Below, in pieces: positions 3,784 to 50,114 of a stretch of DNA of 64,000 nt. The stretch covers positions 1 to 64,000 of the forward strand of contig NZ_GL476300.1 in assembly GCF_000148725.1 (NCBI RefSeq), read 5' to 3'. The position numbers and the translations under genes are program-made. Below the pieces are notes generated by a model. The model was not told the origin of the DNA. It searched no databases and saw nothing but the letters and a program-made list of their open reading frames with translations. Positions within the stretch are counted from its first letter, which is position 1. Each line of letters starts with the position of its first letter. The DNA is from Roseibium sp. TrichSKD4. Lineage in GTDB: Bacteria > Pseudomonadota > Alphaproteobacteria > Rhizobiales > Stappiaceae.

Positions 3784-3846
3784 GAGGCACAAAAACCCCA
3801 CTGGCAAAAGCATCTGGAATGCAGCAGGCAATACGCATTGTTTTAA
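3784..3846 (+). pseudogene. 3' remnant of the small gene split by IS66
   Basis: These 20 codons plus stop (EAQKPHWQKHLECSRQYALF, TAA at 3844-3846) join in frame to codon 80 of the gene at 1081 once the IS66 and one copy of GAATGAAG are removed. The fragment has no start of its own. It ends convergent with, and overlapping by 3 bases, the stop of the relaxase gene. Confidence 0.75.
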
Positions 3847-6233
3847 TGCCGTCTTGGAATAAATGATCGATCAGGAGCGCGTGACCAAACGCGCTCTTGT
3901 TCATCCCGATCTTTTTCAAGGCAGCGCAGTGAAGCCTTGTCAGCATACAGCCTTACCTCTTCACGGTGGCGAGACATCGCTACATAAGACAGATGCGAAT
4001 CCATTGTTTTAGAGCCCAGCACAAACGCCCGATCTACCGTTGCCCCTTGGGATTTATGGATGGTGATGGCGTAGCCGTGATCAATCTCGCTATAGAGTGA
4101 AGGATTAACGCACACACTGCGCGCCAGCCCATCCTCATCATCAAGACGGATCGTAAGCTGCCCCTCATCAATGGCCTCGACAGTGCCAAGCATGCCGTTT
4201 TTCACGCCAAGCGTTCGATCATTCTTGGTCAACACAATGCGATCCGTCACAGCAAAGGCGCGCGGGCCGTGGCTGGTGTAAAGCAGCGCCTCGTGACTTA
4301 ACTCACCAGCAGCTTTTTTCATCTGACGGATGGTCTGATTGATCGCATGAACATCCTTGCGGCGATGCGCAAGCGCTAGCCGTGAAGCCTCATCCCCATA
4401 AAGTTCCTGATCGGTCAAATACCCTTCGGCCAGCTTAGCAATGGCTTCATTGGGTTCACGGGTTTGAATGATGCACCCGTTTTCACGGTAGGCGGACAAG
4501 GCTTCTTTGTTTTTGCCATCTGCAAATAGGCGTGTGGCCTGTCGCTGCCACTCAAACCATTGACGGCGCACTTCTGTCAGCTTGGCTGTATCAACGCTGC
4601 CAGCAATATCCTTAAACGGCGTACCTGCCTGAATAGGCTGAAGCTGTTCAGGATCACCAACCAGCACAATCTTTGCGCCAGAGCGGGCAGCTTCATGAAC
4701 AAATTTCGCGAGTTGCTTTGCGCCAATCATCCCAGCCTCATCAATGACGAGGACGGTGTTCTTATCCAAGCGCTCATACCCGCTTGCCCAGCTATGTTCT
4801 AACGAGGCTAGTGTTCGGCTCGTAATCCCTGATGAGCTTTTCAGCCCATCAGCAGCCTTGCCAGAGAGCGCCGCACCTATAACGCGATAGCCTTGTTTCC
4901 CCCAGGCTGATTTAGCGCTTTTAAGCATCGTGCTTTTACCCGCGCCAGCCAGACCAACAACGGAAGATAGCTGCTTGCCACTCAAGACGTGTTTAACCGC
5001 AGCCTCTTGTTCGGCGCTTAAACTGGCTCCATAGGCATCAGCCAGATGCGCGTTTTCATCGGCGATGGCTTTTTGAATAATGGCGCTATCAACATGATGA
5101 CTGGAACGACCTTCCAACTCATGGACACTGCCCATGAGATCACGCTTGCAGGCTTGAAACTCAGCGCTTGTGTAGCGCGCTTCAGTCCCGCGCCCAGAGA
5201 ACTTGACCAGATCACTACATTGAAGGGCGCGCTCTAACGCGCCATGCAACTCCATCGGATTGTCGATAAAGTCCGCCAGCCCGCGTAAAATATCAGAGCG
5301 CGTAAATTCCTCTTTTTTATCGGCAATGAGAGGGATGATATGCGCAGGATCGTGTCTGACCTTTTCTTTGTTTGAAAGCCGCTCTTCATCAAGCGGAACA
5401 ACCAAAGGCTGATCAGGATCGGCAAAAACAGATTGCTCAAACGCTTCTTTGAGCCGCAACCCTCGCGCTTCCTCAACGCTTGGAAGACTTTGCAGATCCC
5501 CAAGGCGATCCCGAACGATTTTTGTTTTTTCACCGACCCAGCGTGCAACGGAATAAACTTCGCCATTGCCATCAACGGCGACAAAGCCGCGTCTATCGCC
5601 ACGAGCAAGAGTGAATCCATGTTCTCTCAATGCGCTCGCAAAGGCTGCGCGGCTATCAGAAGCCTCCCAGCACTGACGAAATATCTGTTTGATCGCCTTA
5701 GGATCTTTATTGATCCGTTTGGCTTGCAGGGCTTCGATATTGGAATAGTTGAGCGGATCGCGCTGATCAGCATCTCTAAAGCCATCAGGCATATCCCAGC
5801 CATGCTCGATGTATAGATCACGGGCGAGACTTGTCAGCTTGCGCTTGAAGTGCGGCAGATTGATTGCCTTCATTTTGGCGACATCAATCCTCGACCACAC
5901 GCAATGCGCATGACGGCGGCCTTTCTTCTCATGAAACACGATAGCGCGGGGCTGCCCCTCCAACCCAAACGTCTCTTCGATACGGGTAATGGCCGTTTCA
6001 AAGACGCTGTTCGGCACATCTTCTGTTTGTGGTGGGCTGAGACTGACAGAGAAGAAGAACTGGCGGCAGCGTGTGCCTTTAGAGATCGCTTCGGCTTCCT
6101 GCAACGCGCCAAGCAGGTCAGTCGATAAAAATCCACTCACCTCATGCACCTCAACATGATCATTGTCATGCATGTTGAGAAGATGCTCTGCCAGCCGAAT
6201 AGCGCCCCCGCGCTGCGCCCCTTCTAAAATCAT
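3843..6233 (-). CDS. traA: Conjugative relaxase fused to a RecD-like helicase (TraA/MobQ type)
   Basis: A 796-residue two-domain mobilisation protein. Residues ~1-250 form a relaxase nuclease domain, starting MILEGAQRGGAIRLAEHLL, with the metal-binding histidine motif GRRHAHCVWSRID at about 105-117. Residues ~400-780 form a superfamily-1 helicase with Walker A GLAGAGKS (427-434), Walker B VLVIDEAG (494-501), VGDPEQLQPIQAG, and the RecD C-terminal ATIHKSQGATVD-like and YVAMSRHRE motifs. Such proteins nick DNA at oriT and unwind the strand for transfer. The start overlaps mobC by 4 bases. All motifs I looked for are intact. No type IV secretion genes are visible, so it would depend on a helper or be a remnant. 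Confidence 0.88.
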   Translation of the reverse strand: MILEGAQRGGAIRLAEHLLNMHDNDHVEVHEVSGFLSTDLLGALQEAEAISKGTRCRQFFFSVSLSPPQTEDVPNSVFETAITRIEETFGLEGQPRAIVFHEKKGRRHAHCVWSRIDVAKMKAINLPHFKRKLTSLARDLYIEHGWDMPDGFRDADQRDPLNYSNIEALQAKRINKDPKAIKQIFRQCWEASDSRAAFASALREHGFTLARGDRRGFVAVDGNGEVYSVARWVGEKTKIVRDRLGDLQSLPSVEEARGLRLKEAFEQSVFADPDQPLVVPLDEERLSNKEKVRHDPAHIIPLIADKKEEFTRSDILRGLADFIDNPMELHGALERALQCSDLVKFSGRGTEARYTSAEFQACKRDLMGSVHELEGRSSHHVDSAIIQKAIADENAHLADAYGASLSAEQEAAVKHVLSGKQLSSVVGLAGAGKSTMLKSAKSAWGKQGYRVIGAALSGKAADGLKSSSGITSRTLASLEHSWASGYERLDKNTVLVIDEAGMIGAKQLAKFVHEAARSGAKIVLVGDPEQLQPIQAGTPFKDIAGSVDTAKLTEVRRQWFEWQRQATRLFADGKNKEALSAYRENGCIIQTREPNEAIAKLAEGYLTDQELYGDEASRLALAHRRKDVHAINQTIRQMKKAAGELSHEALLYTSHGPRAFAVTDRIVLTKNDRTLGVKNGMLGTVEAIDEGQLTIRLDDEDGLARSVCVNPSLYSEIDHGYAITIHKSQGATVDRAFVLGSKTMDSHLSYVAMSRHREEVRLYADKASLRCLEKDRDEQERVWSRAPDRSFIPRRH

Positions 6234-6989: not shown

Positions 6990-7385
6990 TTGCTAACTCA
7001 GGAGCAAATGATAAGACGAAAGAAGGATCGAGTGACCGACGATGCGGATCGGATCGTAAAAGACATCAAACGCCAGACCCGCCGTCGGTTTTCCGCTGAA
7101 GAGAAGATCCGCATAGTGGTTTCTGGTCTTCGAGGCGAAGACAGCATTGCAGAACTTTGCCGCCAGGAAGGTATCGCCCAGAGCCAGTATTATTCCTGGT
7201 CCAAGGACTTCATGGAAGCGGGCAAGAAACGGCTTGCTGGGGACGCAGCTCGTGAAGCCAGTTCTGATGAAGTAAAGTCTCTTCGCAAAGAGACGAGGGA
7301 CTTGAAGGAAGTGGTTGCAGAACAGGCTCTGGAACTTCGCCTTCTCAAAAAAAGCATGATCGGGGATGGGGTCGACGACGAATGA
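6990..7385 (+). CDS. IS3 family transposase OrfA
   Basis: This 131-residue protein has the helix-turn-helix of IS3 OrfA proteins (RFSAEEKIRIVVSGLRGED, then IAELCRQEGIAQSQYYSW), followed by a coiled-coil leucine-zipper region at ~95-125. It binds the element ends. It overlaps OrfB by 4 bases (ATGA), so OrfB is probably made by reinitiation rather than, or as well as, frameshifting. Confidence 0.92.
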   Translation: MLTQEQMIRRKKDRVTDDADRIVKDIKRQTRRRFSAEEKIRIVVSGLRGEDSIAELCRQEGIAQSQYYSWSKDFMEAGKKRLAGDAAREASSDEVKSLRKETRDLKEVVAEQALELRLLKKSMIGDGVDDE

Positions 7386-8362
7386 GATATCCCGCCTCCG
7401 AGAAACTTGAAATCATTCGACTGGTGGAGCAGTCCCATCTTCCAGTCAGACAGACGCTGGATCGGCTGGGTATTCCAAGGTCAACCTTCTACGTCTGGTA
7501 TGACAAATATCAAACCGGTGGCATAGATGCCTTGCAGGACACGGCCCCCATGCCTGCACGGGTCTGGAACCGGATCCCCGATGATATCCGCCAACAGGTC
7601 ATTGATCTGGCCCTGGAAGAACCGGAACTCTCACCTCGGGAGCTGGCTGTCCAGTTTACGGACACAAAGCAGTACTTCGTGTCTGAGGCCAGTGTTTACC
7701 GGTTGCTGAAAGCCCATGACCTCATCACCAGTCCGGCCTTTATCGTGGTCAAGGCAGCTGACGAGTTCAAGAACAAGACCACAGCGCCCAATGAGCTGTG
7801 GCAGACAGACTTCACCTATCTGAAGGTTATTGGCTGGGGTTGGTTTTACCTGTCAACAATCCTTGATGATTACAGCCGCTATGTCATCGCGTGGAAGCTG
7901 TGTACGACGATGTTGGCCAGTGATGTCACGGATACGTTGGAACTGGCCTTACAGGCTTCAGGCTGTAATCAGGCCAGTGTCCGCCACCGGCCAAGACTGT
8001 TGTCGGACAATGGGTCAAGTTACTTCGCCGGTGAGCTGGCCGACTGGCTCGACGACAAAGGCATGGACCATGTGCGTGGAGCCCCATACCACCCCCAAAC
8101 GCAGGGCAAGATCGAAAGATGGCATCAGACCTTGAAAAACCGGATCCTTCTGGAGAACTACTTCCTGCCCGGTGACCTCAAAGCCCAAATAAGCAAGTTC
8201 ATCAGCCACTACAATCATCACCGATATCACGAGAGCTTGAAGAACCTCACACCCGCTGACGTCTACTTCGGGCGCGGCGAACAAATCCTGCGCAAACGAG
8301 AAAGGATCAAACAAAGCACCATCGAACAACGCCGCTTGCAACACCGCAAACAGGCCGCCTAA
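7382..8362 (+). CDS. IS3 family transposase OrfB (DDE integrase core)
   Basis: A 326-residue catalytic subunit. An N-terminal helix-turn-helix (HLPVRQTLDRLGIPRSTFY) precedes an rve-type integrase core with all three acidic residues: D in WQTDFTYLK, D in LLSDNGSSY, and E in QGKIERWHQ. The C-terminal YNHHRYHESLKNLTPADVYFG block is typical of the family. No frameshift or stop is seen, so the protein should be functional. Confidence 0.95.
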   Translation: MRYPASEKLEIIRLVEQSHLPVRQTLDRLGIPRSTFYVWYDKYQTGGIDALQDTAPMPARVWNRIPDDIRQQVIDLALEEPELSPRELAVQFTDTKQYFVSEASVYRLLKAHDLITSPAFIVVKAADEFKNKTTAPNELWQTDFTYLKVIGWGWFYLSTILDDYSRYVIAWKLCTTMLASDVTDTLELALQASGCNQASVRHRPRLLSDNGSSYFAGELADWLDDKGMDHVRGAPYHPQTQGKIERWHQTLKNRILLENYFLPGDLKAQISKFISHYNHHRYHESLKNLTPADVYFGRGEQILRKRERIKQSTIEQRRLQHRKQAA

Positions 8363-12424: not shown

Positions 12425-13729
12425 TCACGAAAGGCGCGCCAGCTCGGCTTCAACGGACTTGGCGACGGCCAGAAGTTTGTGATCCTGCCCACCGGGAGCC
12501 ACCAGCATGGCGCTCAGGGTCAATGCACCGTTTTTGTACGGCAGCGCGATAGAGCATGCGTCCGTTACATTGGCCAAAGACGGGTTGCGCAAAGCCAAAA
12601 GATTCAGCCGGTTGAAATTGGCGTCATCTTCAAGGTCGCTCAACTTGGGTGGCAAGATCGGTGTTGTTGGCAAAATAAGGAGATCATCACCGACCTCTGT
12701 AGCAAAGTCCGCAATCAGTTTCTGACGGCGGTTGAGAGTCTGTCGGTATTCAATAGCCGAAATTTCTTCGGCCTTGCCCATACGCGCATGCACCCGTTGA
12801 TCCATATCCGCACCTGAGTTCTGGAAATGGGTTTCATAGTGCGCTCGGGATTCAACAGAGGTCATATGCCATGGCGGCACCTGATTGTAGAGATCCGCGC
12901 AAGATGTCAAATCCCGCTCCACTACATCAAACCCAGCTTTACGGAGATGGCTCACAACGGCCTTAAAACCTTCCGCAATGGCTTGGTCCACTTCGGTGAA
13001 GCCGAAGTTGCGCGGAACAACAAGCCGAGCCTTTTGAGCCGGAGCCGAACTTGTTTCTTGCCCGGACATGACCTGCCAAGCCAGTTCGCAGGCAGAGACC
13101 GTGCGTGCCATCGGGCCAAAACTGTCAAGACTGTCAGACAAGGGATTGCCGCCTTCGAGCGAGACTGAGGCCTGCGAAGGCTTGAAGCCGGTTATGCCGC
13201 AAAAGGCCGCCGGAATGCGCAAGGAGCCGCCGGTGTCGCTGCCGATGGCGATATCCGCCAGTCCAAGGGCAACAGACACTGCCCCACCGCTTGTGGACCC
13301 ACCCGGCGCACAGCCCGGATAGATCGGGTTTTGCGGCGTTCCGTAGTGAGGGTTGAGGCCAAGCCCGGAATACGCAAACTCCGACATGTTGGTGAGACCA
13401 ACAAACACGGCTCCGGCTTCATCCAGACGTACGACCGAGGGAGCATCTTGGCTTGCGGGCGGATCGATTTGCAGAACCTTGGCAGCGGACGTGGTGGTCT
13501 CACCCTTTAGATCAAACAGCGCCTTGACACTGACCAGCGCCCCGGCCAAAGGTGATTTCGCTCCACCTGCCTTTTTCGCTTGCTCTCTGGCCCGATCCGG
13601 CAGGAGCTTCGTGAAGACTGACTGTGCCTTTGGCTCGTCCGCCAGTTTAAAAGCCTGTTCGAGACGGGTTTCAGCAGTATCAGCAGACCAATGTGTCGTG
13701 TTCATAGCCGTCATGTCTCGCTTTCCCAT
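12425..13729 (-). CDS. Amidase signature family hydrolase
   Basis: A 434-residue amidase. The Ser-Ser-Lys triad is visible: Lys69 in VSVKALFD, the cis-Ser in GGSTSGG (~145-147), and the nucleophile Ser169 in DTGGSLR. The usual GGSSGG is written GGSTSGG here, a small variation. Substrate cannot be told from sequence. Alternative starts are at 13714 and 13705 (MTAMNTTHW), either of which may be the real one. The gene is divergent from the M20 deacetylase at 13852 and 110 bases upstream of dld. With a deacetylase next door, breakdown of an N-acylated or amide compound is plausible. Confidence 0.9.
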   Translation of the reverse strand: MGKRDMTAMNTTHWSADTAETRLEQAFKLADEPKAQSVFTKLLPDRAREQAKKAGGAKSPLAGALVSVKALFDLKGETTTSAAKVLQIDPPASQDAPSVVRLDEAGAVFVGLTNMSEFAYSGLGLNPHYGTPQNPIYPGCAPGGSTSGGAVSVALGLADIAIGSDTGGSLRIPAAFCGITGFKPSQASVSLEGGNPLSDSLDSFGPMARTVSACELAWQVMSGQETSSAPAQKARLVVPRNFGFTEVDQAIAEGFKAVVSHLRKAGFDVVERDLTSCADLYNQVPPWHMTSVESRAHYETHFQNSGADMDQRVHARMGKAEEISAIEYRQTLNRRQKLIADFATEVGDDLLILPTTPILPPKLSDLEDDANFNRLNLLALRNPSLANVTDACSIALPYKNGALTLSAMLVAPGGQDHKLLAVAKSVEAELARLS

Positions 13730-13851
13730 TGAACTGAATTTGTAATCATTATGTCAAATATGCCAAGTAACGGGGAATGCGCTGCACGCACAAGGGCATG
13801 AACTATCCATGCCAAGCCTCCCACCACGACAGCTTTTCTTCAGGACATTTG

Positions 13852-14880
13852 ATGACACAGATTGCCCGCTCCGACATTCAATCCTCAATCCTTGATGCCG
13901 TGGACAAGGGCTTTGAAAAACAGATTGCTTTTCTACAGGAAATCGTCCGAGCCCCTTCCCTGCGCGGGAATGAAGCCGAAGCCCAAGGTTTGGTGTCTTC
14001 TGCACTTCGTGACCGCGGCTATGAGGTTTCCGAGTTCGAGATCGATACGGATCAAATCGGCCAACATCCGGCGTATTCGCCGACCACCGTTGATCACTCC
14101 GGCATCTTCAATGTGGTAGGCAGCAAAACTCCTGAAACCGCAAATGATCGCTCACTTGCATTGAACTCCCACATCGATGTGGTTCCAACTGCAGATCCGT
14201 CCTTGTGGCAACACGCCCCCTTTTCTGGACACAGAGATGGGGATTGGCTTTATGGTCGCGGCGCAGGAGATATGAAAGCAGGCCTGAGTGCCAACATTTT
14301 CGCTTTGGACGCAATTGCCGCTGCTGGCTTGAAATTGACGGCTCCCGTGCAAATTCAGTCGGTGCTCGATGAAGAAGTGACAGGAAATGGCGCTGCTGAA
14401 ATGATCCGCAGAGGGCAAGTCGAGGACGCCATCCTGATCCCGGAGCCAACCGATGAGCAGCTGGTTTCAGCCAATTCCGGCGTTGTCAAATTCCGGATTT
14501 CCGTTGAAGGGGTTCCCGCCCACCCGCGCGACCCGGAGAGTGGCCTTAGCGCCATTGATGCGGCGATCCAGATCATTTCTGGACTCAAACAACTTGAAAC
14601 CGAATGGAACAATGAAAAACATGCGCACTCCGGTTTTGAAGATTTAAGCAACCCGGCAAGCTTGAATATCGGGACCATTTCGGGCGGCGAGTGGCCTGCC
14701 TCCGTCCCCTGCGCTTGCGTCTTTGAAGGGCGGATCGGCTTTTATCCCGGAGACGATACCAAAGCCCGAGCCAAGGCTTTCGAAACTCATCTGAAAGCAC
14801 TTTGCGACGCATACCCACGCCTGAAACGGGCAAACCCGAAGCTGGAATGGGTTGGTGTCATGCAATCCGGTTATCGGCTA
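13852..14880 (+). pseudogene. M20 family deacetylase (ArgE/DapE type), 5' part
   Basis: The first 343 codons of an ArgE/DapE/ACY1-like metallopeptidase. Metal ligands are present: His107 and Asp109 in NSHIDVVP, Asp140 in RGAGDMKAG, and Glu174-Glu175 in DEEVTGNG. The dimerisation domain follows (HPRDPESGLSAIDAA). The gene is cut after CTA (codon 343, GYRL) by the transposon at 14881; the frame then runs 8 foreign codons into it and stops at 14907. The remainder (codons 344-429) is at 17113-17373. The start at 13852 follows AGGACA; an ATG at 13777 is in frame but unsupported. The product made now lacks the last metal-binding His region and should be inactive. Confidence 0.88.
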
Positions 14881-14890
14881 GGGTCAGGAC

Positions 14891-15654
14891 TCATAACCAG
14901 AAGATGATTGTTGCTGCGAGATAGATTGCGGATCGGAATGTATGAGCGCATCGGTCATAGCGCGTAGCGATGCGCCGCCAGTCTTTCAGCTTGGCAAACA
15001 GGTTTTCGACTTTGTATCGGGTTTTGTACGTGGTCTTGCAGTATTCGATTGTTTCTTTTCGATTTTTCTTCGGCGGAATACAGGGTGCAATCTTTTGTTC
15101 CGCTAACATCTCGCGGATTTTGTTGCTGTCGTATCCACGATCCCCAATCAGGGTTTCGGCCTTGGGCAGGTCTTTGAGCAAAACATCTGCGCCTTTGAAG
15201 TCGCTTCGTTGGCCTTCCGTCAGGTGTAGGCGCACAGGTCGCCCAAGATTGTCACACACGGCGTGTAGCTTTGTATTCAAGCCGCCTTTTGTGCGCCCAA
15301 TCAGCCTCGGCTCGTCGCCCCCTTTTTTAGGCTGGAAGCTGTGCGGTGGGCTTTCAGGTGCGTGGCGTCAATCATTAGGATATTTCCCGACTCGTCCTGC
15401 GTCTTGGCCAGTTCTTCGAAGATGCGCTCGAACACACCATTTTCCGACCATCGCTTAAACCGGTTATAGAGCGTCTTGTGCGGCCCGTAATCAGGGGGTG
15501 CATCGACCCATTGCAGCCCGTTCTTGATGACATAGATTATCCCGCTCAGAACCTTGCAGTCATCGGCACGGTCAACCCCACGGGGCTTTGGAAAGAACGG
15601 TGCAATCTGTTCAACCTGCTCTTGAGTAAGCCAAAATAGATGTGACATGGGCAC
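14891..15654 (-). CDS. IS5/IS427-type transposase, two frames joined by -1 frameshift
   Basis: Two frames make one DDE transposase. OrfA (15301-15654, 117 residues, MPMSHLFWLTQEQVEQIAPF) holds the DUF4096-like N-terminus and the first catalytic Asp (LMIDATHLKAH). The second frame (14891 to about 15310) holds GDRGYDS and a KVENLFAKLKDW stretch with the final Glu. They overlap at AAAAAAGGGGGCG on the minus strand (~15310-15330). A -1 slip there gives a continuous product through EPRLIGRTKGGLNTKLH. Programmed frameshifting at such runs is known for this IS group, so the gene is probably intact. It starts 24 bases inside the degraded internal end. Confidence 0.88.
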
Positions 15655-15811
15655 CCCTCCTCGTTACCATGAATCACAGTAGTGAGCCGAGAGGAACCCT
15701 CTTTATCGAACGGCCGCGATGCGGGACAAAGCACCATTTCGCTGCGATCGCACCGATGGAAGCTCTGGTGCAAATCATTACACACGCCAAGACATGTGAC
15801 CCGGACCAGTT

Positions 15812-16258
15812 TCAGTCAAGCGGTGGGGGGCGCATCCGGACCGGGCTGGATTTAACGATTGCCGTCTGAGTAGACGCATGCGTCGAGAAGTCTTCCAGTA
15901 GCCCATCAAGTTCTGAGATGTCTTTGAGGAGCATCCTCGCAACAAACGCGTCTTCGCCGGTGACTTTGTCGCACTGAACGATGCGATCTGACATGATGAT
16001 CTTTTCAGCCAGCAGATAAACCTTTCCGGGAAAAGGCTTGAATCGTACTATCGCTTCGAGGGTGTAGCCAAGTTCTATCGGCGACAGCTCTACACCAAAC
16101 CCTGTAATTACGCCCGTGTCTTCGAGCCGTTTGATGCGATCACGAACAGTAGGTGCAGACACATCAGTCAATGATGCAAGCTCACGCCAGCTCAGCCTCG
16201 CGTTGCGGCTCAGCTCTTGAAGGAGTGTTCGGTCCAGTTGATCAAGTATGATTTTCAT
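15812..16258 (-). CDS. Lrp/AsnC family transcriptional regulator (transposon passenger)
   Basis: A 148-residue regulator with an N-terminal helix-turn-helix (LSWRELASLTDVSAPTVRDRI, split at residues ~23-43) and a C-terminal ligand-binding RAM domain (~65-140). Such proteins sense amino acids as octamers. It is divergent from the LysE-type exporter 145 bases away, the standard arrangement for a regulator that induces its exporter when an amino acid builds up. The pair sits wholly between the transposon ends. Confidence 0.92.
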   Translation of the reverse strand: MKIILDQLDRTLLQELSRNARLSWRELASLTDVSAPTVRDRIKRLEDTGVITGFGVELSPIELGYTLEAIVRFKPFPGKVYLLAEKIIMSDRIVQCDKVTGEDAFVARMLLKDISELDGLLEDFSTHASTQTAIVKSSPVRMRPPPLD

Positions 16259-16403
16259 TACGACAGCCCACTAGCCTTTTTGCTTTCGATTTGGCCAAAC
16301 TGTTATCGTTTTGCCTCCGGAAGGCAAAGCACTTCGACTATGACGGTGTATAAAATCCGGTTTGGCGCTTCAACTATGGTGCGCAAGGCAGAGGATTTGA
16401 GGC

Positions 16404-17015
16404 ATGGCTTGGGCAATATGGCTTTCATACGCGACGATATCAGTGGCCAACATCGTAACACCGGGGCCTGCGAACTTGAACACGCTCAGACGGGCATTGC
16501 AGCTTGGTTTTATGCCGGTCCTGCCAACTATCTTTGGTAACGCTTTGGGTCTTGCCGTGGGCGGCATCCTTTGTGCGGGTGGCGTGGCTGCTTTCGTCGT
16601 GACGTCAGACGTGCTTTGGACGGTATTTCAATGGCTCGGGGTCGCTTATTTAGGCGGTTTGGGACTCAAACTGATCATAAAGCGTGACCACATAGCCTTC
16701 GGGAAGGGACTGATCCAGCAGGTGCCGCCACGGCTTTTGTTCCGGGAGGCATTCTTGCTTGCGGTCACAAACCCCAAAGCCTTGTTGTTCTATCTTGCAC
16801 TTTTCCCGCAAGTTCTAGACCCATCCCAGCCGCTTTGGTCTCAATCAACTATGCTAGTATTGACCTACTGCGGGCTGTCCATTCTATCGCTTAGTACCTA
16901 CGCACTGCTGGCAGAAAAAATTCGCGGGCGTTTTCTAACGCAAGCACGTTATGACGTTTTCCGGGTCTGTTCCGGGCTTGTATTGATAGGCTTCGCCTTA
17001 AACTTGGCCTCGTAA
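16404..17015 (+). CDS. LysE family amino-acid exporter (transposon passenger)
   Basis: A 203-residue inner-membrane protein with about six hydrophobic segments. It carries the LysE/RhtB signature TPGPANL near residue 19-25 and NPKALLFYLALFPQ near residue 123-136. Members export lysine, arginine, threonine, homoserine lactones or similar compounds; the substrate here is unknown. The start at 16404 gives the standard N-terminus. It is probably controlled by the divergent Lrp-type regulator. The gene ends 95 bases before the transposon's right end. Confidence 0.9.
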   Translation: MAWAIWLSYATISVANIVTPGPANLNTLRRALQLGFMPVLPTIFGNALGLAVGGILCAGGVAAFVVTSDVLWTVFQWLGVAYLGGLGLKLIIKRDHIAFGKGLIQQVPPRLLFREAFLLAVTNPKALLFYLALFPQVLDPSQPLWSQSTMLVLTYCGLSILSLSTYALLAEKIRGRFLTQARYDVFRVCSGLVLIGFALNLAS

Positions 17016-17112
17016 CATCACAAAGTGGTCATTGATGTTTTGTGCAGCATCCGTGACTATGGGCTCATCGTCGACACTTGTCTCTCACCCCATTTTATGG
17101 GTCCTGACCCTA

Positions 17113-17373
17113 GATGAAACATCGACTGCCGGTACCATTCTACAGGATGCTCATTGCGCGGTCTCGGGCGGATCGCTCCGACGATATGTGATGGCCTGTT
17201 ATCTGGATGGAGCCCTCTTCGCCAATCATGCGAACCGTCCAGCATTGACCTACGGACCACTTGCCGAAAATATCCACGGCATTGATGAGCGGGTCAGTTT
17301 GTCGTCTCTCAAACGGGTCACTCAGACGATCGCCCTATTTGCCGCGAACTGGTGCGGGGTTGAATCGGCCTGA
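17113..17373 (+). pseudogene. M20 family deacetylase, 3' part
   Basis: The last 86 codons of the deacetylase begun at 13852. DETSTAGTILQDAHC follows on from GYRL of the 5' part in frame. The ending YGPLAENIHGIDERVSL contains the conserved C-terminal metal-binding His of M20 enzymes. The open frame visible today extends back to 17032 but its first 27 codons are transposon DNA. No ribosome site supports independent translation. Confidence 0.85.
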
Positions 17374-17537
17374 GATGGAGACAAATAGTCGGACCGCCGC
17401 GCTGGCTACTGCTTTGCCACCGTAATGTCATGTCACAACCCTATGGTCTTCCGCCGAAACCATGTGGTAGATGCGTTACCAACCTTATAGCGGTGCGTGT
17501 TTGCACCTTTGAAACTTGAAAATTCAGGAATTTTGAA

Positions 17538-18845
17538 ATGCGCGTTGCAATGATTGGAACCGGATATGTTGGCCTTGTATCCGGGGCCTGTTTCGCTGAT
17601 TTCGGTCACACGGTTACGTGTATCGACAAGGCGAAGGACAAAATCGACGCGCTGAACGCCGGTGAAATTCCGATCTATGAGCCGGGTCTTCAACAACTTG
17701 TTGCGAAAAATGTCGATGAAGACAGGCTTTATTTCACGACCGAAGCTGAAGAAGCCGTTCGCAATGCTGATGCGGTCTTCATCGCAGTGGGAACGCCAAC
17801 GCGGCGCGGCGACGGTCATGCAGACCTTACATACGTCTACCAAGCGGCCGAAGAGATCGCGCATCTGATTGAAGGCTTTACGGTCATCGTCACCAAATCG
17901 ACGGTTCCCGTGGGAACAGGTGACGAAGTGGAAGCCATCATTGCCAAGGCAAATCCGCAAGCCAATTTCGCCGTTGTTTCCAACCCGGAATTTTTGCGAG
18001 AAGGGGCTGCGATCAACGACTTCAAGCGCCCGGATCGGGTTGTCGTTGGCACGGAGAATGAAGAAGCGGTGAAGGTGATGCGCGAACTCTACCGTCCGCT
18101 CTACCTCAATGAAACACCGATTCTTGTCACAAAACGTCGGACATCCGAGCTTATCAAATATGCAGCCAATGCGTTTCTGGCGGTGAAGATCACTTTCATC
18201 AACGAGATTGCCGATCTTTGCGAAAAGGTTGGGGGCAATGTTCAGGAAGTCTCGCGTGGGATCGGCCTCGACAATCGTATTGGCGGGAAATTCCTACATG
18301 CAGGTCCCGGATATGGTGGATCGTGCTTCCCAAAGGACACATTGGCGCTTTCCAAAATCGGCGCTGATGCCGACGTTGATCTCAAGATCGTCAACTCAGT
18401 CATCGAAGTGAACAATCGGCGGAAGTCCAAAATGGCCGACAAGGTCATTGAGTTCATGGGCGGTGACGTGTCTGGCAAGACGATCGCTCTGCTTGGTTTG
18501 GCATTCAAGCCCAACACCGATGATATGCGGGACGCGCCTTCCATCGACATTGTCGCCCGCCTGCAGGAGGCTGGTGCAAGCATTCGCGCGTTTGACCCAG
18601 CCAGCATGAAGGAAGCCGAGCATGCGATGACGAATGTGCTCTTCTGCGATGGCCCTTATCACGCCATCGAAAATGCTGATGCGGTTGTCATCGTCACCGA
18701 GTGGGACCAGTTTCGGGCTCTCGACCTCGACAGGGTTCACAACCTGTTGAAAACCCCGAAGGTCATCGACCTCCGCAATATCTACGATACCGATTATATG
18801 TCTGAGCGTGGATTCACCTATACCAGCGTTGGGCGCGCCTACTGA
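17538..18845 (+). CDS. ugd: UDP-glucose 6-dehydrogenase
   Basis: A 435-residue enzyme that oxidises UDP-glucose to UDP-glucuronate for exopolysaccharide or lipopolysaccharide. The NAD-binding GTGYVGLVSG starts at residue 7, and the catalytic Cys263 lies in GPGYGGSCFPKDT. KRRTSELIKYAANAF and LGLAFKPNTDDMRDAPS are also present. AGGA lies 10 bases before the ATG. The ExoY-like transferase follows 228 bases later, so both may serve surface polysaccharide synthesis. Confidence 0.96.
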   Translation: MRVAMIGTGYVGLVSGACFADFGHTVTCIDKAKDKIDALNAGEIPIYEPGLQQLVAKNVDEDRLYFTTEAEEAVRNADAVFIAVGTPTRRGDGHADLTYVYQAAEEIAHLIEGFTVIVTKSTVPVGTGDEVEAIIAKANPQANFAVVSNPEFLREGAAINDFKRPDRVVVGTENEEAVKVMRELYRPLYLNETPILVTKRRTSELIKYAANAFLAVKITFINEIADLCEKVGGNVQEVSRGIGLDNRIGGKFLHAGPGYGGSCFPKDTLALSKIGADADVDLKIVNSVIEVNNRRKSKMADKVIEFMGGDVSGKTIALLGLAFKPNTDDMRDAPSIDIVARLQEAGASIRAFDPASMKEAEHAMTNVLFCDGPYHAIENADAVVIVTEWDQFRALDLDRVHNLLKTPKVIDLRNIYDTDYMSERGFTYTSVGRAY

Positions 18846-24608: not shown

Positions 24609-25351
24609 TTATGGCGCTTTGAAGAAGTCATCCTCAGTCACCACTTCGCCCATCACAGATTCAGTGATGCGGAAGGTCACCGGTGTGCTCTTTTCCATCT
24701 TCACATCTGGAGGTGATGTCACGAGAATGCGCACCTCTCGGGTGGTGTCCGGCCCAACTTCAATAATCGGACGGTCAGCGAACACGGCCTCAACACCAAT
24801 GGCCTCAACCTTGGTACGCGGCGGCATGCCTTCCACGTGCAGAACAAAGTTCCGCGCGTGTTGCCTCTTGTTGGACAAACGAATGGTGTAGCCGTTTCGC
24901 ACAGTGCCATCGCTCTGTTCAACAAAGACCGGATTGCGGTCGTGCAGGACGCTGATGTCTGCGAAATCACGCGTCAACAATGCGGTCAGCATAATGGCAC
25001 CGACGAGAACGATTACCCCTGCATAGATGATCGTTCGAGCCCGCACGATCTGATAGATCGGCTCCTTGCCTTCAACCCGGCGCTCAATGTTTTCATCCGT
25101 GTCATATGCGATCAGGCCAGTCGGCTTGCCGACCTTGGTCATGATGTTGTCACAGGCGTCGATACATAGGCCGCACTGAATGCAATCCAATTGTGCGCCC
25201 TTGCGGATGTCGACCCCGGTCGGGCAAACCTGAAAACACTGGTGACAATCAATACAGTCACCAGCTGGCAAACCTTTCAGCTCAAGCGCCTTGTTTTGCT
25301 TCAGCGACCCGCGCGGCTCCCCACGATCCCAACGGTAGGTCACATTAAGTG
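24609..25351 (-). pseudogene. ccoG: ccoG (fixG/rdxA), 3' part separated by IS5-type insertion
   Basis: About 245 codons of CcoG, the membrane copper(II) reductase of cbb3 oxidase assembly. Two ferredoxin-type cysteine clusters are here (DCIDCHQCFQVCPTG and DCIQCGLCIDACD). A membrane segment (IIYAGVIVLVGAIMLTALL) and the periplasmic Ig-like domain ending in TEDDFFKAP follow. The open frame extends back to 25409 but those first residues come from the insertion sequence. Joined to 26833-27643 without one TAAGTG, the gene is 1548 bases, 515 codons plus stop, in frame. Confidence 0.92.
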
Positions 25352-25369
25352 GTCCGCCCTGAACAACGT

Positions 25370-26719
25370 CTAAGCCATTGATGTTGCGCGTGGCCGAAGC
25401 AATACGCAAATATTCGATTTGACCGGTTTGGGGATGGGGTTTGTGATCCAGAGCAGCAAAATGATCAGTGCATTGAGGATCAGACGCAGGTTATGACCGG
25501 CTGCGGCCAGCAGGGCGTTGATGGCATCGCCATTTTTGCCATTGAGGAAGTTCCGGTCAAGTCGTCCATCTGTTTTCATGTGGCCGATGGTGGCCTCGAT
25601 CGCTGATCGTCGTTTCAGCTCACGCTTCATCTGTGCCGTCAGCCCGCGCTTCTGGCCGGAGATCATGACCTTGGCGTCGCCCTCATAATCATGCCCCCGA
25701 TAGCCACGGTCCACATAGACACGCTCAGCTTTGGTGCCGCAGACTTTCTCAGCCTGACTGATGGTGTCATTCAAGGTGTGCCCATCATAGGGATTGCCCT
25801 CAAAAGCCCTCGCCGCAAGAACCAATCCTTCCCGATTGGTCGTGGCAATGCCAACCTTGGCCCCGAACTCGTAAGGTGTTCGCGCCTTGCCCTTGGCAAT
25901 ACAGGCCACTTCCGGCGCATGCATGGAATAAATCTTGTTTTTGTCCTTGGGGGTCTGGGCCAGAAGCCGCTCCACCAGTCCCAGCAGACGGGAGAACCGG
26001 TGCTCAAGACCTTCGTTGCCTGCGATCTTGCGGGAGATGTCGCGATAGACCCGGCCCAGATAGGTCTTCAGCTTTTTGAGTTCCCGGCGCATCCGCTTGA
26101 ACTGTTTGGCATGGGCATAACGGCCCGCCATCAAGGCCGCCTTTTTGGCAACTCTGGTATGGCTGCGACGCAAGATGATGCCGGCCCTCTTGGCCTGGCG
26201 CACCAGAAGCTGCAAGGCCTTGTGATAAAGACGGCTATCGGTGGGATGGGCAATGGCTTTGGGTTGAACGGTCGTATCAACCAAGACCCGCTCAAGGCTG
26301 CTCTTCTTGATCGTCCCGCTCTCAATCGCAACACCTACCGTAGCAGAAAGAAGCTTTTCCATTCCCTCAGGACCAATCCGTTTGCGCCAGCGGGTCATGG
26401 TTGAGGGATCAATGGGGAATTGGTGCTGGAAAAACTCAAAACCGCAGAAAGACTGCCAGTAGGGGTTTTCAACCCAACGCTCAACCGTCTCTTCATCGGA
26501 AAGATCGTACATGTGCTTGAGAAAGTGCAGCCCGGCCATCAGACGCGTTGGTTTGGCCGGTCGTCCCAAGGGGCGATAATGCCTGCCGAACTCCGCATCA
26601 AATTCATCCCAAGGCATCAGACCAGACAGCCGCACCAACGAATGGTTCATATCGATGATTGCGGCCAGGCGTTCCTTGAACAGATCGCCACACCGTTTGT
26701 TGCGTTTTGAAGGTCTCAT
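25370..26719 (-). CDS. IS5 family transposase, intact
   Basis: A 449-residue single-frame DDE transposase. The N-terminal DUF772-type domain spans ~20-120 (DEFDAEFGRHYRPLGRPAK). The DDE core has Asp in LVDTTVQP, Asp in YVDRGYRGHD and Glu in SAIEATIGHMK. A hydrophobic C-terminal stretch (LILNALIILLLW) follows. It ends 18 bases from the element's left end. No frame damage is seen. Confidence 0.95.
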   Translation of the reverse strand: MRPSKRNKRCGDLFKERLAAIIDMNHSLVRLSGLMPWDEFDAEFGRHYRPLGRPAKPTRLMAGLHFLKHMYDLSDEETVERWVENPYWQSFCGFEFFQHQFPIDPSTMTRWRKRIGPEGMEKLLSATVGVAIESGTIKKSSLERVLVDTTVQPKAIAHPTDSRLYHKALQLLVRQAKRAGIILRRSHTRVAKKAALMAGRYAHAKQFKRMRRELKKLKTYLGRVYRDISRKIAGNEGLEHRFSRLLGLVERLLAQTPKDKNKIYSMHAPEVACIAKGKARTPYEFGAKVGIATTNREGLVLAARAFEGNPYDGHTLNDTISQAEKVCGTKAERVYVDRGYRGHDYEGDAKVMISGQKRGLTAQMKRELKRRSAIEATIGHMKTDGRLDRNFLNGKNGDAINALLAAAGHNLRLILNALIILLLWITNPIPKPVKSNICVLLRPRATSMA

Positions 26720-26832
26720 GAGAATATGCCAGAAAATGCGTGCTTCGGATCAACTAACCGGCATATTCACACATCCAAAACCCAATGGGTATCCATACTC
26801 TTCAATCAGTTAAGGGGTTTTTCAGCGCGAAC
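26362..26832. repeat. Direct repeat of window bases 1-469
   Basis: This segment is the same IS5-type right end found at the window start, in the same orientation, 26.4 kb away. The two copies differ by two single-base gaps and one substitution. Recombination between them could delete or excise the DNA between, including mtnA, dld, ugd and part of the cbb3 cluster. Confidence 0.9.
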
Positions 26833-27643
26833 TAAGTGCCTTTTCGTCGGTCAGTGCGGCCTGAATCCGCGGCCAAGGGCACATATAGATGCACACTTGT
26901 TCACGCATGAACCCTGCAAGCAGGTAGGTTGTCGAGGTTAGAATAGCGATCCAGATATAGGCCGCCATGGGTGCCTGAAACGTCGCCAGCTCATAAACCA
27001 GTGTTGGCGCATCGTTGAAGTAGAGAACCCATGCACCACCTGTCCACCAGGCAATCATGATCCAGAAGAAGTGCTTAGTCACCCGCTTCGCAACCTTGCT
27101 TGCGGTCCATGGCGCATTGTCGAGTACGATCCGCTCGCGGCGATCACCTTCGACCTTGCGTTCCACCCAGAGGAACAAGTCTGTCCAAACGGTCTGTGGG
27201 CATAGATACCCACACCACAAGCGGCCCGCGATTGCGTTCATCAGGAACAGGGCAACGGCTGCGATAATCAACAGCCCGGTCAGGTAATAGACTTCCTGCG
27301 GCCAGATTTCGATAAAGAAGAAGTAGCCCCTGCGCCCTTCCATGTCGACGAGCACTGCCTGATCCGGGGCATTCGGGCCTCGGTCAAAACGGATGAAGGG
27401 CAGGAAATAGTAGATCCCGATTGTGATGAACAGCAGGGTCCATTTGATCCTGCGAAACAGCCCATGGGTTGCCATGGGGTAGATCTTTTTTGCTGATGCA
27501 AACCACTCTTCCGAGTGTTCAGCAGTCTCGGCTTCGGTTTTGGAAACCATGCCGCCGTCCTTTTCTCTGGCGGATCCTGCCCCAAAAGGATCCTGAACCA
27601 CACCCGAACCGGTCTCCTTCCCCGCTTCAGGCAATACTTTCAA
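26833..27643 (-). pseudogene. ccoG: ccoG (fixG/rdxA), 5' part
   Basis: The first 270 codons of CcoG. After a polar N-terminus (~70 residues), several membrane segments follow (KWTLLFITIGIYYFLPFI; LLIIAAVALFLMNAIA), then the redox motif CGYLCPQTVW and the region EQVCIYMCPWPRIQ. The frame is lost in the insertion sequence: after EKAL the codons SSR are element DNA, then stop at 26822. The 5' product keeps the membrane part but lacks both iron-sulfur clusters. Confidence 0.92.
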
Positions 27644-29526: not shown

Positions 29527-31182
29527 TTATTCGGCAGCAGCCAGGGAGCCGGCAGGCATGGTGTCAGCTTCTTCAGCTTCTCCATGACGAACCGTCATCC
29601 AAAGGTTGTAAGCCATGATCAGGGAGCCGAGGACGAACAGAGCGCCACCCAATGCCCGGATCACATAGAACGGATACATCGCATCAACGGTTTCGATGAA
29701 AGAGTACTCCAGGAAGCCCAGCGCATCGTATGCACGCCACATCAGACCCTGCATGATACCGGAGACCCACATCGCGGTGATGTAGAGAACGATACCCAGA
29801 GTGGACAGCCAGAAGTGCCAGTTCACCAATTTCAGCGAGTAAAGCTGTTTTTTGTTCCACAGCCACGGGATCAAGCAATACAGCGCTCCGAAGGAGATGT
29901 AGCCAACCCAGCCAAGTGCACCGGAGTGAACGTGACCAATGGTCCAGTCCGTGTAGTGCGACAGGGAGTTGACTGCCCGTAAGCTCATCAGTGGCCCTTC
30001 GAAAGTGGACATGCCGTAGAAGGCAACCGAGACCACCATCATCCGCAAAACCGGATCAGTCCGCAGCTTGTCCCATGCCCCTGAAAGGGTCATCAGACCG
30101 TTGATCATGCCACCCCAGGACGGCATCCAGAGGATGATGGAGAAGGTTGCGCCCAGCGTGGATGCCCATTGCGGCAGAGCCGTGTAGTGCAAGTGGTGCG
30201 GACCAGCCCAGATGTAGATGAAAATCAATGCCCAGAAATGCACGATGGACAGGCGGTAGGAGTAAACCGGCCGGTCAGTGCGCTTCGGCACGAAGTAGTA
30301 CATGATGGCGAGGAAGCCGGCGGTCAGGAAGAAGCCCACCGCGTTGTGGCCGTACCACCACTGAACCATGGCATCTTGAACACCAGACCAGACTATGACC
30401 GACTGGGTCGAGTAGATCGACACCGGAATGGTCAGATTGTTGGTGATGTGCAGCATGGCAACAGTGACGATGAACGCCAGATAGAACCAGTTCGCCACGT
30501 AGATGTGCGGCTCTTTCCGCTTCCACAGCGTACCAAGGAACAGCATCAGGTAAGCGACCCAAACAATCGTCAGCCAAAGGTCGGCATACCATTCCGGCTC
30601 GGCATATTCCTTGCCTTGTGTCGCGCCCAACAGATAGCCGGTGCCCGCAATCAGGATGAAGGCGTTGTAACCGAGAACCACGAACCAAGGCAGGATGCCA
30701 CCCGGCATGCGCGCGCGGCAAGTCCGCTGCACCACATACATGGACGTTGCCAGAAGCACGTTGCCGCCAAACGCAAAAATCACCGCTGAGGTGTGCAGCG
30801 GGCGCATACGGCCGAAATTGGTCCAGGGAAGATCAAAGTTCAGTGCGGGCCAAGCCAGCTGGCTGGCAATGATCAGCCCGACGAGGAATCCGGCGATTCC
30901 CCAGAACATCGCAGCCACAGAAGCAAACTTGATAGGGCCGATGTTGTAATTCGGCTTTCCGTCAATCTCCTGCGGGATCTGCTGATTGTCCCCCTCGAAA
31001 TAGTTTTTGAAGATGTAAAACACACCGCCAGCAGCGAACAACGCTCCCAGACCGGTGTGAAATGCCATCACTTGATCGAATGTTTTGCCTGCGATGATCA
31101 GGCATCCGAATGCGATTACGGCGAGGAAAAGAGCAAAGAAGCCCTCTTCCATCGTAAGCATTCTGGCATGTGAAGTTGCCAT
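29527..31182 (-). CDS. ccoN: cbb3 cytochrome oxidase catalytic subunit CcoN (FixN)
   Basis: A 551-residue subunit with twelve predicted helices that carries haem b, haem b3 and CuB and reduces oxygen with very high affinity. Conserved haem/copper ligands are seen in [13 protein letters not shown], in [12 protein letters not shown], in [14 protein letters not shown], and in [12 protein letters not shown]. Length is normal. A perfect FNR/FixK box lies about 80 bases upstream, fitting induction at low oxygen. Confidence 0.97.
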
Positions 31183-48075: not shown

Positions 48076-50114
48076 ATGACCGAAGTGAGTTCCCTCCCGC
48101 AGGCCCTGCAGGCCGCGTTGGAGAAAAAGGGTTATGAGACCCTAACCCCTGTTCAGGAAACTATTTTGAAGGAAGCCCCGCCAGAGGCTGATCTTCTCGT
48201 CTCCGCGCAAACCGGCTCCGGCAAAACGGTGGCTTTCGGTCTTGCTCTTGCCCCGACGCTGCTCGGCGAAGACGACAACCTTGGACAGGCGAACGCGCCG
48301 ATTGCACTGGCGATTGCGCCGACCCGCGAGCTGGCACTTCAGGTCAAGGAAGAACTCACCTGGCTCTACCGGGAAGCAGGTGCCACGCTAACCTCCTGTG
48401 TTGGCGGCATGGACCCACGGACCGAGCGCCGCGCCCTTGATCGCGGAGCGCATATTGTAGTTGGCACACCGGGCCGCTTGCGGGACCATTTGGAACGCGG
48501 CGCGCTGGACCTTTCCCAGATCAAGGCCGTTGTCCTTGATGAAGCCGACGAAATGCTCGACATGGGCTTTCGGGAAGATCTGGAATTTATTCTCGACGCA
48601 GCGCCAGAAACACGCCGGACGCTGATGTTCTCGGCAACGGTTCCAAAACCGATTGCAGAACTTGCCAAGCGCTTTCAAAAAGACGCGGTTCGCTTGTCGA
48701 CCATTTCCGCCAAGGATCAGCACGTCGACATTGATTACATCGCGCACCCGGTGGTTTCCAGCGAGCGCGAAAACGCCCTCATCAATGTTCTGCGTTGCAT
48801 GAAGCGGAAAATCCATCATCTCTGCTCTACACGTGAGGCGGTTAAGCGCTGACGTCTCGTCTTGCCAATCGTGGCTTTGCCATCGTGTCCCTTTCTGGCG
48901 AACTGAGTCAGGAACAGCGCTCTGCCGCCCTCACCGCCATGAAAACCGGCGCTGCGCGGGTGTGTGTGGCAACGGATGTGGCCGCACGCGGCATTGACCT
49001 TCCCAACCTTGATCTTGTGATCCATGCGGACCTGCCAACGGGCAAGGCTGCGCTCCTGCACCGTTCCGGACGGACGGGACGTGCTGGCCGCAAAGGTACC
49101 AGTGTGTTGATGGTCCCCTTCCCGCGTCGCCGAGCAGCGGAACACACGCTGAAGTTCGCGGGTGTCAAAGTCACCTGGAAAGGCGCACCAACAGCGGACG
49201 ACATTCGTGCCAAGGACAAGGAGCGTCTCTTCGAAGCGCCTGTTCTGAACACCGAGTTTGAACCGGAAGACCTGGCCATTGCCCGCGAGCTTATGGAAAA
49301 GCACGATCCGGAAAAGCTGGCAGCTGCTTTCGTCAAGCTCTACCAGTCTCGTCTTCCTGCGCCTGAAGAGGTCAGTGAAGCGAGTGAAGAGAACATTCAC
49401 GGTCGCGATTCCGGCTCTCGTGGTGGCCGTGTTGCCGAAATCCGTGGCAAGTTTGACGAGGGTGTCTGGTTCCGCCTGTCACTTGGCCACAAGCACCGGG
49501 CTGATCCACGCTGGCTGCTTCCCATGATCTGCCGCGCCGGGCACGTCACCAAAAAGGAAGTCGGCGCGATCAAGATTTTCCAGACAGAAACTCGCTTTGA
49601 AATCTCTGGAGAGCATGCCGAACGATATGCGGCGACGCTGAAGCGCGACGGCACTGGTGAAGACAATGTCACCATCGAACTTCTGGATGCGCGCAAGGGC
49701 AAGGTTCCGCCTCCTCCAGCCGGTGAAGGTGGAGACCGTGGACGCGGAAAACCCCGCCGCAAGGGTGGTGCCCCGGATTACGAAAACATGGGCCGGGAAG
49801 ACCGCATGGACGGAGACCGTCCACGGCGTGGACGCCCGCAAAACGACCGCCCGCGTAAGGTAAAAAGCCGCAAGCGCTTTGGCGAAGAGGATGTGGCACC
49901 CAACCATCCCGCTTACGAGCCGCTCGACCCCAAAACGCTGGGTGGGGAGAAGAAGTCAAAGTCCTTCAAAGGGGATGATGAAAAATCCACGGGCCGCGAC
50001 AAAAAGCCATTTCGCGGTAAACCGAAAACCGGCAAGCCAGCAGGTGGCAACGGGAAACCGAAGAAGAACAAGCCATCCCGGGCGGCTCGCAAAGAAGCCC
50101 GCGCCAAGAGCTGA
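48076..50114 (+). pseudogene. DEAD-box RNA helicase (DeaD/DbpA-like), interrupted by base deletions
   Basis: One helicase gene read in two frames. The first part (48076-48852) has the Q-motif, AQTGSGKT, PTRELALQ, VGTPGRL, VLDEADEMLDMGF and SAT. The second (from 48849 in frame) has ARGIDLPNLDLVIH, HRSGRTGRAG, a DbpA-type RNA-binding domain (~49460-49640) and a long basic Gly/Lys-rich tail. In 48797-48850 family comparison suggests four lost bases: three together cost one codon around the expected AIIFCSTREAV block, and the fourth (a C at 48849) puts TGA in frame. All lie in short base runs, so a sequencing error is plausible. If real, the helicase core is cut between its two RecA domains. Confidence 0.85.

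Follow-up and report, generated by a model that had tools for sequence, protein, structure and literature searches.

A probable transporter insertion sequence of the IS427 group carrying an Lrp-type regulator and a LysE-type exporter

The DNA analysed here, a window of 64,000 nt, contains an element of 2230 bp (14881-17110) that is bounded by one pair of inverted ends and lies within a gene for an M20 peptidase/deacetylase. Between the ends are a pair of transposase frames, an Lrp/AsnC-family regulator and a LysE/RhtB-type exporter. The features of the locus are listed below in order of position, with the evidence for each; G734 and its locus L179 denote the closest relative of the element that was found.

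13777..14880, plus strand: M20 peptidase/deacetylase gene, 5' part (the target); Peptidase_M20 and M20_dimer domains, joined frame resuming at 17113
14879..14880: left TA target duplication, from sequence; target CTAG
14881..14896: left terminal inverted repeat GGGTCAGGACTCATAA, on the 3' side of the transposase; inverted-arm and end-pattern matches
14891..15280, minus strand: transposase OrfB, DDE domain, IS5 family; PF01609 (DDE_Tnp_1) 5e-21, NF033580 4e-40, above cut-off
15301..15654, minus strand: transposase OrfA, DUF4096; PF13340 2e-21, NF033580 106 bits, just under the cut-off of 110
15322..15328, minus strand: A_AAA_AAG slippery heptamer for a -1 frameshift between OrfA and OrfB; correctly phased, with the fused frame open
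15655..15724: IS sequence upstream of the transposase, kept in G734; ordinary IS427 copies would stop about here; 80% to L179
15725..17060: passenger slot, a segment absent from the close IS relative; L179 comparison
15812..16258, minus strand: Lrp/AsnC-family regulator; HTH_AsnC-type 3e-14, AsnC_trans_reg 3e-6
16259..16403: intergenic region between divergent lrp and lysE, presumed operator and promoters; from position only
16404..17015, plus strand: LysE/RhtB-type exporter; LysE PF01810 2e-23
17061..17110: right-hand end, 50 bp; 86% identical over its length to L179 of G734
17095..17110: right terminal inverted repeat, on the minus strand GGGTCAGGACCCATAA; inverted-arm and end-pattern matches
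17111..17112: right TA target duplication, from sequence
17113..17373, plus strand: M20 gene, 3' part; in-frame alignment to homologues

The inverted ends named in the original prediction are real. Their arms (14878-14896 and 17095-17113) are 19 nt long and 95% complementary, with 18 of the 19 positions paired when CTA/TAG is included, and the terminal inverted repeat of the element itself is 16 bp with one mismatch, a form common to its relatives. Searched across the 64-kb window at up to three mismatches, the 16-base end gave just two matches, which are the two ends of the element; both are also exact fits to the degenerate end pattern. The left flank reads GGCTA immediately before GGGTCAGG and the right flank reads TAGATG immediately after CCTGACCC, so TA is duplicated on either side as had been proposed, and the target was CTAG. 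TA was likewise found on both sides in all 13 of the relatives listed.

Joining the flanks without the element produces a single open M20 frame of 454 amino acids from the ATG at 13777, or of 429 amino acids if started at an in-frame ATG 25 codons downstream. The joined protein aligned with all 12 homologues compared at 44-47% identity and gap-free around the junction, the alignments spanning from residue 21-38 to residue 451-454; these homologues were the loci fetched from a search that gave some match in 333 of 385 genomes. Restoration of a 429-residue deacetylase on excision, which the original prediction had claimed, is thus confirmed with the choice of start codon as its one proviso, and the restored frame together with the gap-free homologues places the borders of the element exactly to within the TA duplication. 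An Lrp-LysE pair at this same place in relatives that lack the transposase had been named as an observation that would speak against the proposal. None was seen, the M20 gene being uninterrupted in 12 of 12 homologues, although these are distant and no close relative of the interrupted locus was found.

OrfA and OrfB are two overlapping transposase frames, both of them open. The A_AAA_AAG heptamer is in the correct phase, and a -1 shift there gives a single open transposase protein. Along with the domains and the match to NF033580, which is the NCBIfam model for IS5 family transposases, this upholds the predicted frameshifting IS5/IS427-type transposase. Members of the IS427 group have two overlapping ORFs and a frameshift motif, and their DDE motif is complete only in the fusion; ISPha1 of Paracoccus is an exception with a single ORF (PMC3281130). 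That paper tabulates 11 Paracoccus elements of the group; they are 832-865 bp long, and 10 of them have a 2-bp duplication (PMC3281130). The window element has the frameshift-joined overlapping ORFs, the TA duplication and the end length of the group and departs from it in size, being 2230 bp against the usual 0.83-0.87 kb, a size that is typical of the group and does not define it. Its open transposase genes set it apart from mobile insertion cassettes, which lack a transposase of their own and can be moved by a related IS (PMC3129680, PMC3281130), and its single transposase pair and single pair of ends set it apart from composite transposons. Genes unrelated to transposition within one pair of IS ends, with a transposase present, are what is found in transporter IS (tIS), a described kind of IS copy with passenger genes (PMC3129680, PMC7986276, PMC9330008).

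The limits of the passenger were obtained from the closest IS relative found, at locus L179 of G734, where the two transposase frames share 82% and 84% identity with those of the window element. The two DNAs are 80% identical over positions 1-844 of the element (14881-15724) and 86% identical over its last 50 bp (17061-17110). Between these shared ends, the G734 interior consists of non-coding sequence and a nested IS of 833 bp with TA on both sides; there is no gene beyond the nested IS, the remainder being non-coding scrap. The sharing of 844 bp on the left and 50 bp on the right shows that the right end of the window element is a true terminus of this lineage of IS and that the passenger occupies about 15725-17060. 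The meeting point of IS and passenger had been placed near 15675 and is corrected accordingly, since IS homology runs to 15724 and resumes at 17061. The G734 copy is probably dead, as its OrfB has two in-frame stops. A second, partly deleted G734 copy (L201) also matches the window through position 844 of the element; immediately after this, a reading that resembles an IS5/IS1182-like transposase was recognized by eye, and then the contig ends.

A junction at TTTAT near 15712, formed when microhomology removed an internal right repeat, was considered and rejected, because TTTATCGA...GATGCGG is IS sequence that G734 also has. No Rfam matches were found at 13700-17600, and the fold of the transposase leader was unremarkable (z -0.95). 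A short extragenic motif of about 33-55 bp lies at 15705-15760 (core 15721-15746). It also occurs on plasmids of Rhodobacterales and Martelella and in one genome (L072-L076 and L079), where it sits 3' of unrelated accessory genes, namely an ArsR-CDF pair, a CDI immunity gene and a large hypothetical gene. A strict pattern for this motif matched 5 of 41 genomes, which indicates that it is rare under such a pattern and nothing more.

The passenger genes are divergently oriented, and the Pfam domains and strands bear out the earlier description of an Lrp/AsnC regulator beside a divergent LysE-type exporter. For LysE, the nearest NCBIfam models are for homoserine/threonine efflux, with scores below the cut-offs. 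The nearest pair is that of Ruegeria sp. EL01 (L001), with 89% identity for Lrp and 82% for LysE by codon alignment (83% in the contig scan). This DNA similarity spans about 15718-17009 and stops there. The next LysE relatives are from Tateyamaria (69%) and Stappia (57%), and no adjacent lrp was seen by eye at the Stappia locus (L003); the LysE scan of genome contigs accepted only exact hits to any of six octapeptide patterns and can miss relatives. Besides L001, the lrp-lysE pair is present at L002 and is annotated in plasmid loci of Phaeobacter (L066) and Leisingera (L067). No IS ends were found at L001-L010 with up to three mismatches. On the Leisingera plasmid (198-6603 of L067), lrp-lysE lies between two modules in the same orientation, each an IS91-family element plus integrase, so this pair may have become mobile by more than one route.

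Compared with Ruegeria, dN/dS was 0.045 for lrp and 0.076 for lysE, at a dS of about 1.5 that is near saturation. For tnpB, dN/dS was also low and dS near saturation. From these ratios, lrp and lysE look to have been kept functional under purifying selection; lrp-lysE is a normal Roseobacter gene pair. Lrp probably controls the divergent LysE-type exporter and would act at 16259-16403. The exporter itself would be expected to export an amino acid.

The lengths of related elements were surveyed from 86 transposase-side ends with a transposase in the fetched loci, TA being required beside each end and identical copies being merged. A right end lay within the available DNA for 48 of them and did not for the other 38, many of these because contigs or fetched stretches stop. 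End to end, 43 of the 48 IS427 relatives measured 830-876 bp, one of these being the IS nested in G734. Three of the remaining five were shorter than 1 kb (627, 805 and 931 bp) and two were long: the element in G844 is 1593 bp, and that in G734 is 1757 bp to the right end of the nested IS and 1862 bp to its own. Given these exclusions, and because the loci were partly hand-picked (20 sites, among the matches listed), the share of long elements is not a population estimate. These lengths bear in two ways on the original prediction, which was said to fail if other copies of the IS always ended near 15675: most do end at the ordinary length, but the closest relative found, G734, has its right end beyond an enlarged interior, and that end is homologous to the one in the window. 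Taken with the uninterrupted M20 homologues, the conditions set for refutation turned out mostly in favour of the prediction. An additional transposase-side end, L175 in G404, has neither a transposase nor a recognisable partner end.

As a check, the original prediction also proposed looking for other full-length copies of the unit at different sites, and no second one turned up in the collections searched. Among 490 plasmid records that match the element DNA, none covered 80% of the 2230 bp, and no second full copy was found in 87 Stappia-family genomes with at most three candidates scored per genome. Viral contigs, searched with LysE and short end patterns, gave no second copy, and neither did phages queried with 15640-17110. 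The IS part, by comparison, matched 111 of 248 Ruegeria-family genomes, with at most two candidates scored per genome. A scan with a right-end pattern that carried an extra C relative to G734 matched 0 of 394 genomes; it missed its own positive control, G734, and is uninformative on absence.

Other mobile DNA was also observed. Stappiaceae contain a family of MITEs, 261-264 bp long, whose ends are of the IS427 type and whose flanks are TA (L206-L212, seven of the eight loci fetched); the right-end pattern matched 27 of 87 genomes, with 37 matches in G003 alone, of which only some were checked as MITEs. Derivation of the right end of the window element from such a MITE was rejected, as the two match over no more than about 19-26 nt, within the terminal repeat. 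In G732, a 101-bp MITE (L183, 4354-4454) consists of two transposase-side ends of an IS427 element. Within the window, at 24609-25409, 25370-26719 and 26822-27643, a second IS of the IS5 family with a 449-aa transposase splits a FixG/CcoG-like ferredoxin gene in a fixNOP/GHI region, the fix names being assigned by eye. An IS66 transposase (1368-2891), an IS481/IS3-type transposase (7382-8362) and, recognized by eye, a TraA/MobQ-like relaxase-helicase (3843-6233) lie in the left part of the window, which is rich in mobile elements. A DEAD-box helicase, also named by eye, is in two frames (48076-48852 and 48885-50114) and looks either broken or affected by a sequence error. The protein at 29527-31182 (CcoN by eye) matched 59 of 61 Stappia-family genomes, at 78-89% for full-length matches and 92% for one partial match, which makes the host Stappiaceae-like.

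Two further elements enlarge the comparison. The 1593-bp IS427-type element in G844 (L172) has open transposase frames and, between leader and right end, an extra ORF of 157 aa without a Pfam match. In the Stappia family, G704 has a transposase-less insert of 2050 bp between dksA and flgH (L113, 1552-3601). One of its ends is identical to the first 27 bp of the window element, the other is weak (three mismatches in 14), TA is present on both sides, and a transposase remnant of 119 bp (71%) is retained. As cargo it carries a MarR gene that diverges from the genes for an ABA4-like membrane protein and an AAA_33 protein. A search of 41 genomes of that genus, G704 included, with seven candidates scored per genome, identified the empty site in G690, G702, G709 and G714, where the flanks are 32-33 bp apart; the flanks in the others are further apart. 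The alignment across the junction, given for G690, has a looseness of about 10 bp. All four of these genomes also have MarR/ABA4-like DNA elsewhere. It may tentatively be suggested that, in some marine-alphaproteobacterial IS427 elements, a cargo slot between leader and right end takes up and swaps small self-regulated cassettes, examples being lrp-lysE here, the single ORF in G844 and MarR/ABA4/AAA_33 in the non-autonomous G704 element.

The element is best explained, with good confidence, as an IS427-group IS enlarged to a tIS that comprises a frameshifting transposase, an Lrp regulator and a LysE exporter. In a Rhodobacterales-like background, the lrp-lysE pair would have been taken up at a point between the leader of the transposase and the right end. 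The frameshifted transposase would act on the outer ends and carry lrp-lysE along as 2230 bp, and the unit would have entered the M20 gene in a single jump, in a Stappiaceae-like host to which the pair would bring Lrp-controlled amino-acid efflux. Bearing on joint movement are the exact empty site, the homologous ends around a different interior in G734, and the absence of a second full copy; because that copy was not found, movement of the unit in one step is something we infer.

It is unlikely, by our estimate, that an IS427-group element of ordinary length struck the M20 gene first and that lrp-lysE was inserted into it later, the cassette never having moved. Such a history would accord with the missing second copy of the cassette, with the many measured relatives that are too short for passengers, and with G734, where a nested insertion into an element of this kind is seen. 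Against it, no transposon ends were seen on the passenger segment itself, and no inverted pair joins its edges. The same slot is moreover enlarged in G734, whose copy is independent and has a homologous right end, so the enlarged form either predates the insertion in the window or recurs. Whichever order applied, both ends are in place in the unit as it now stands, and its transposase is open.

A decayed composite transposon, in which the right repeat would be the remnant of a second IS downstream of lysE whose remainder was deleted, is considerably less probable still. The Leisingera plasmid gives it some precedent, with a related lrp-lysE flanked by two IS91-family copies. Against it, no second transposase remnant was seen within the unit, a search for the end there at up to three mismatches gave no third copy, and the final 50 bp align with the right end of the G734 element, which is part of a single IS; G734 thereby largely supplies the single-IS relative with the same right end. 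That the structure arose by chance or as an assembly artefact is scarcely credible, given ends that are exact to the base, a duplicated TA, a frame restored in agreement with 12 homologues, and homologous ends in G734. The element was filed as a tIS within the IS427 group, a case absent from the open literature searched. The same literature yielded no paper that joins LysE and Lrp with a transposon or insertion-sequence passenger.

Elements of the IS427 group are common in alphaproteobacteria and are treated as gene-breakers of 0.8 kb. If members of the group can transpose with a regulated exporter on board, they disrupt genes and also transfer metabolic functions, and if the slot suggestion is true, tiny ISs are gene shuttles and not merely mutagens. 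Annotation that expects 0.83 kb would overlook copies with cargo or truncate them where the right end normally lies. Given the parallel cases, the question of cargo can be tested through end-to-end distances in complete genomes.

BrnFE of Corynebacterium and LeuE of E. coli are Lrp-controlled amino-acid exporters. The window pair resembles these systems in that an Lrp-type regulator is presumed to act on an exporter gene, and differs in that the exporter is of the LysE/RhtB type and is carried inside an IS. The element is like the Paracoccus IS427-group members IS1248, ISPpa2 and ISPpa6 in its two overlapping ORFs, frameshift, TA duplication, ends in the range of 13-21 bp and DDE transposase (PMC3281130). 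ISPssp5, also of the IS427 group, is 837 bp as opposed to 2230 bp, and the account of the two ISs in that Psychrobacter study gives neither a passenger gene, whereas the window element has two (PMC6514802). The G704 element, with passenger genes between IS ends and only a remnant of a transposase, fits the mobile insertion cassettes, while the window element retains its own open transposase (PMC3129680, PMC3281130). With the tIS it shares a single pair of ends around a transposase and genes unrelated to transposition; it is unlike the tIS presented in those papers in that its passenger is a regulator-exporter pair and its related elements have other interiors (PMC3129680, PMC7986276, PMC9330008).
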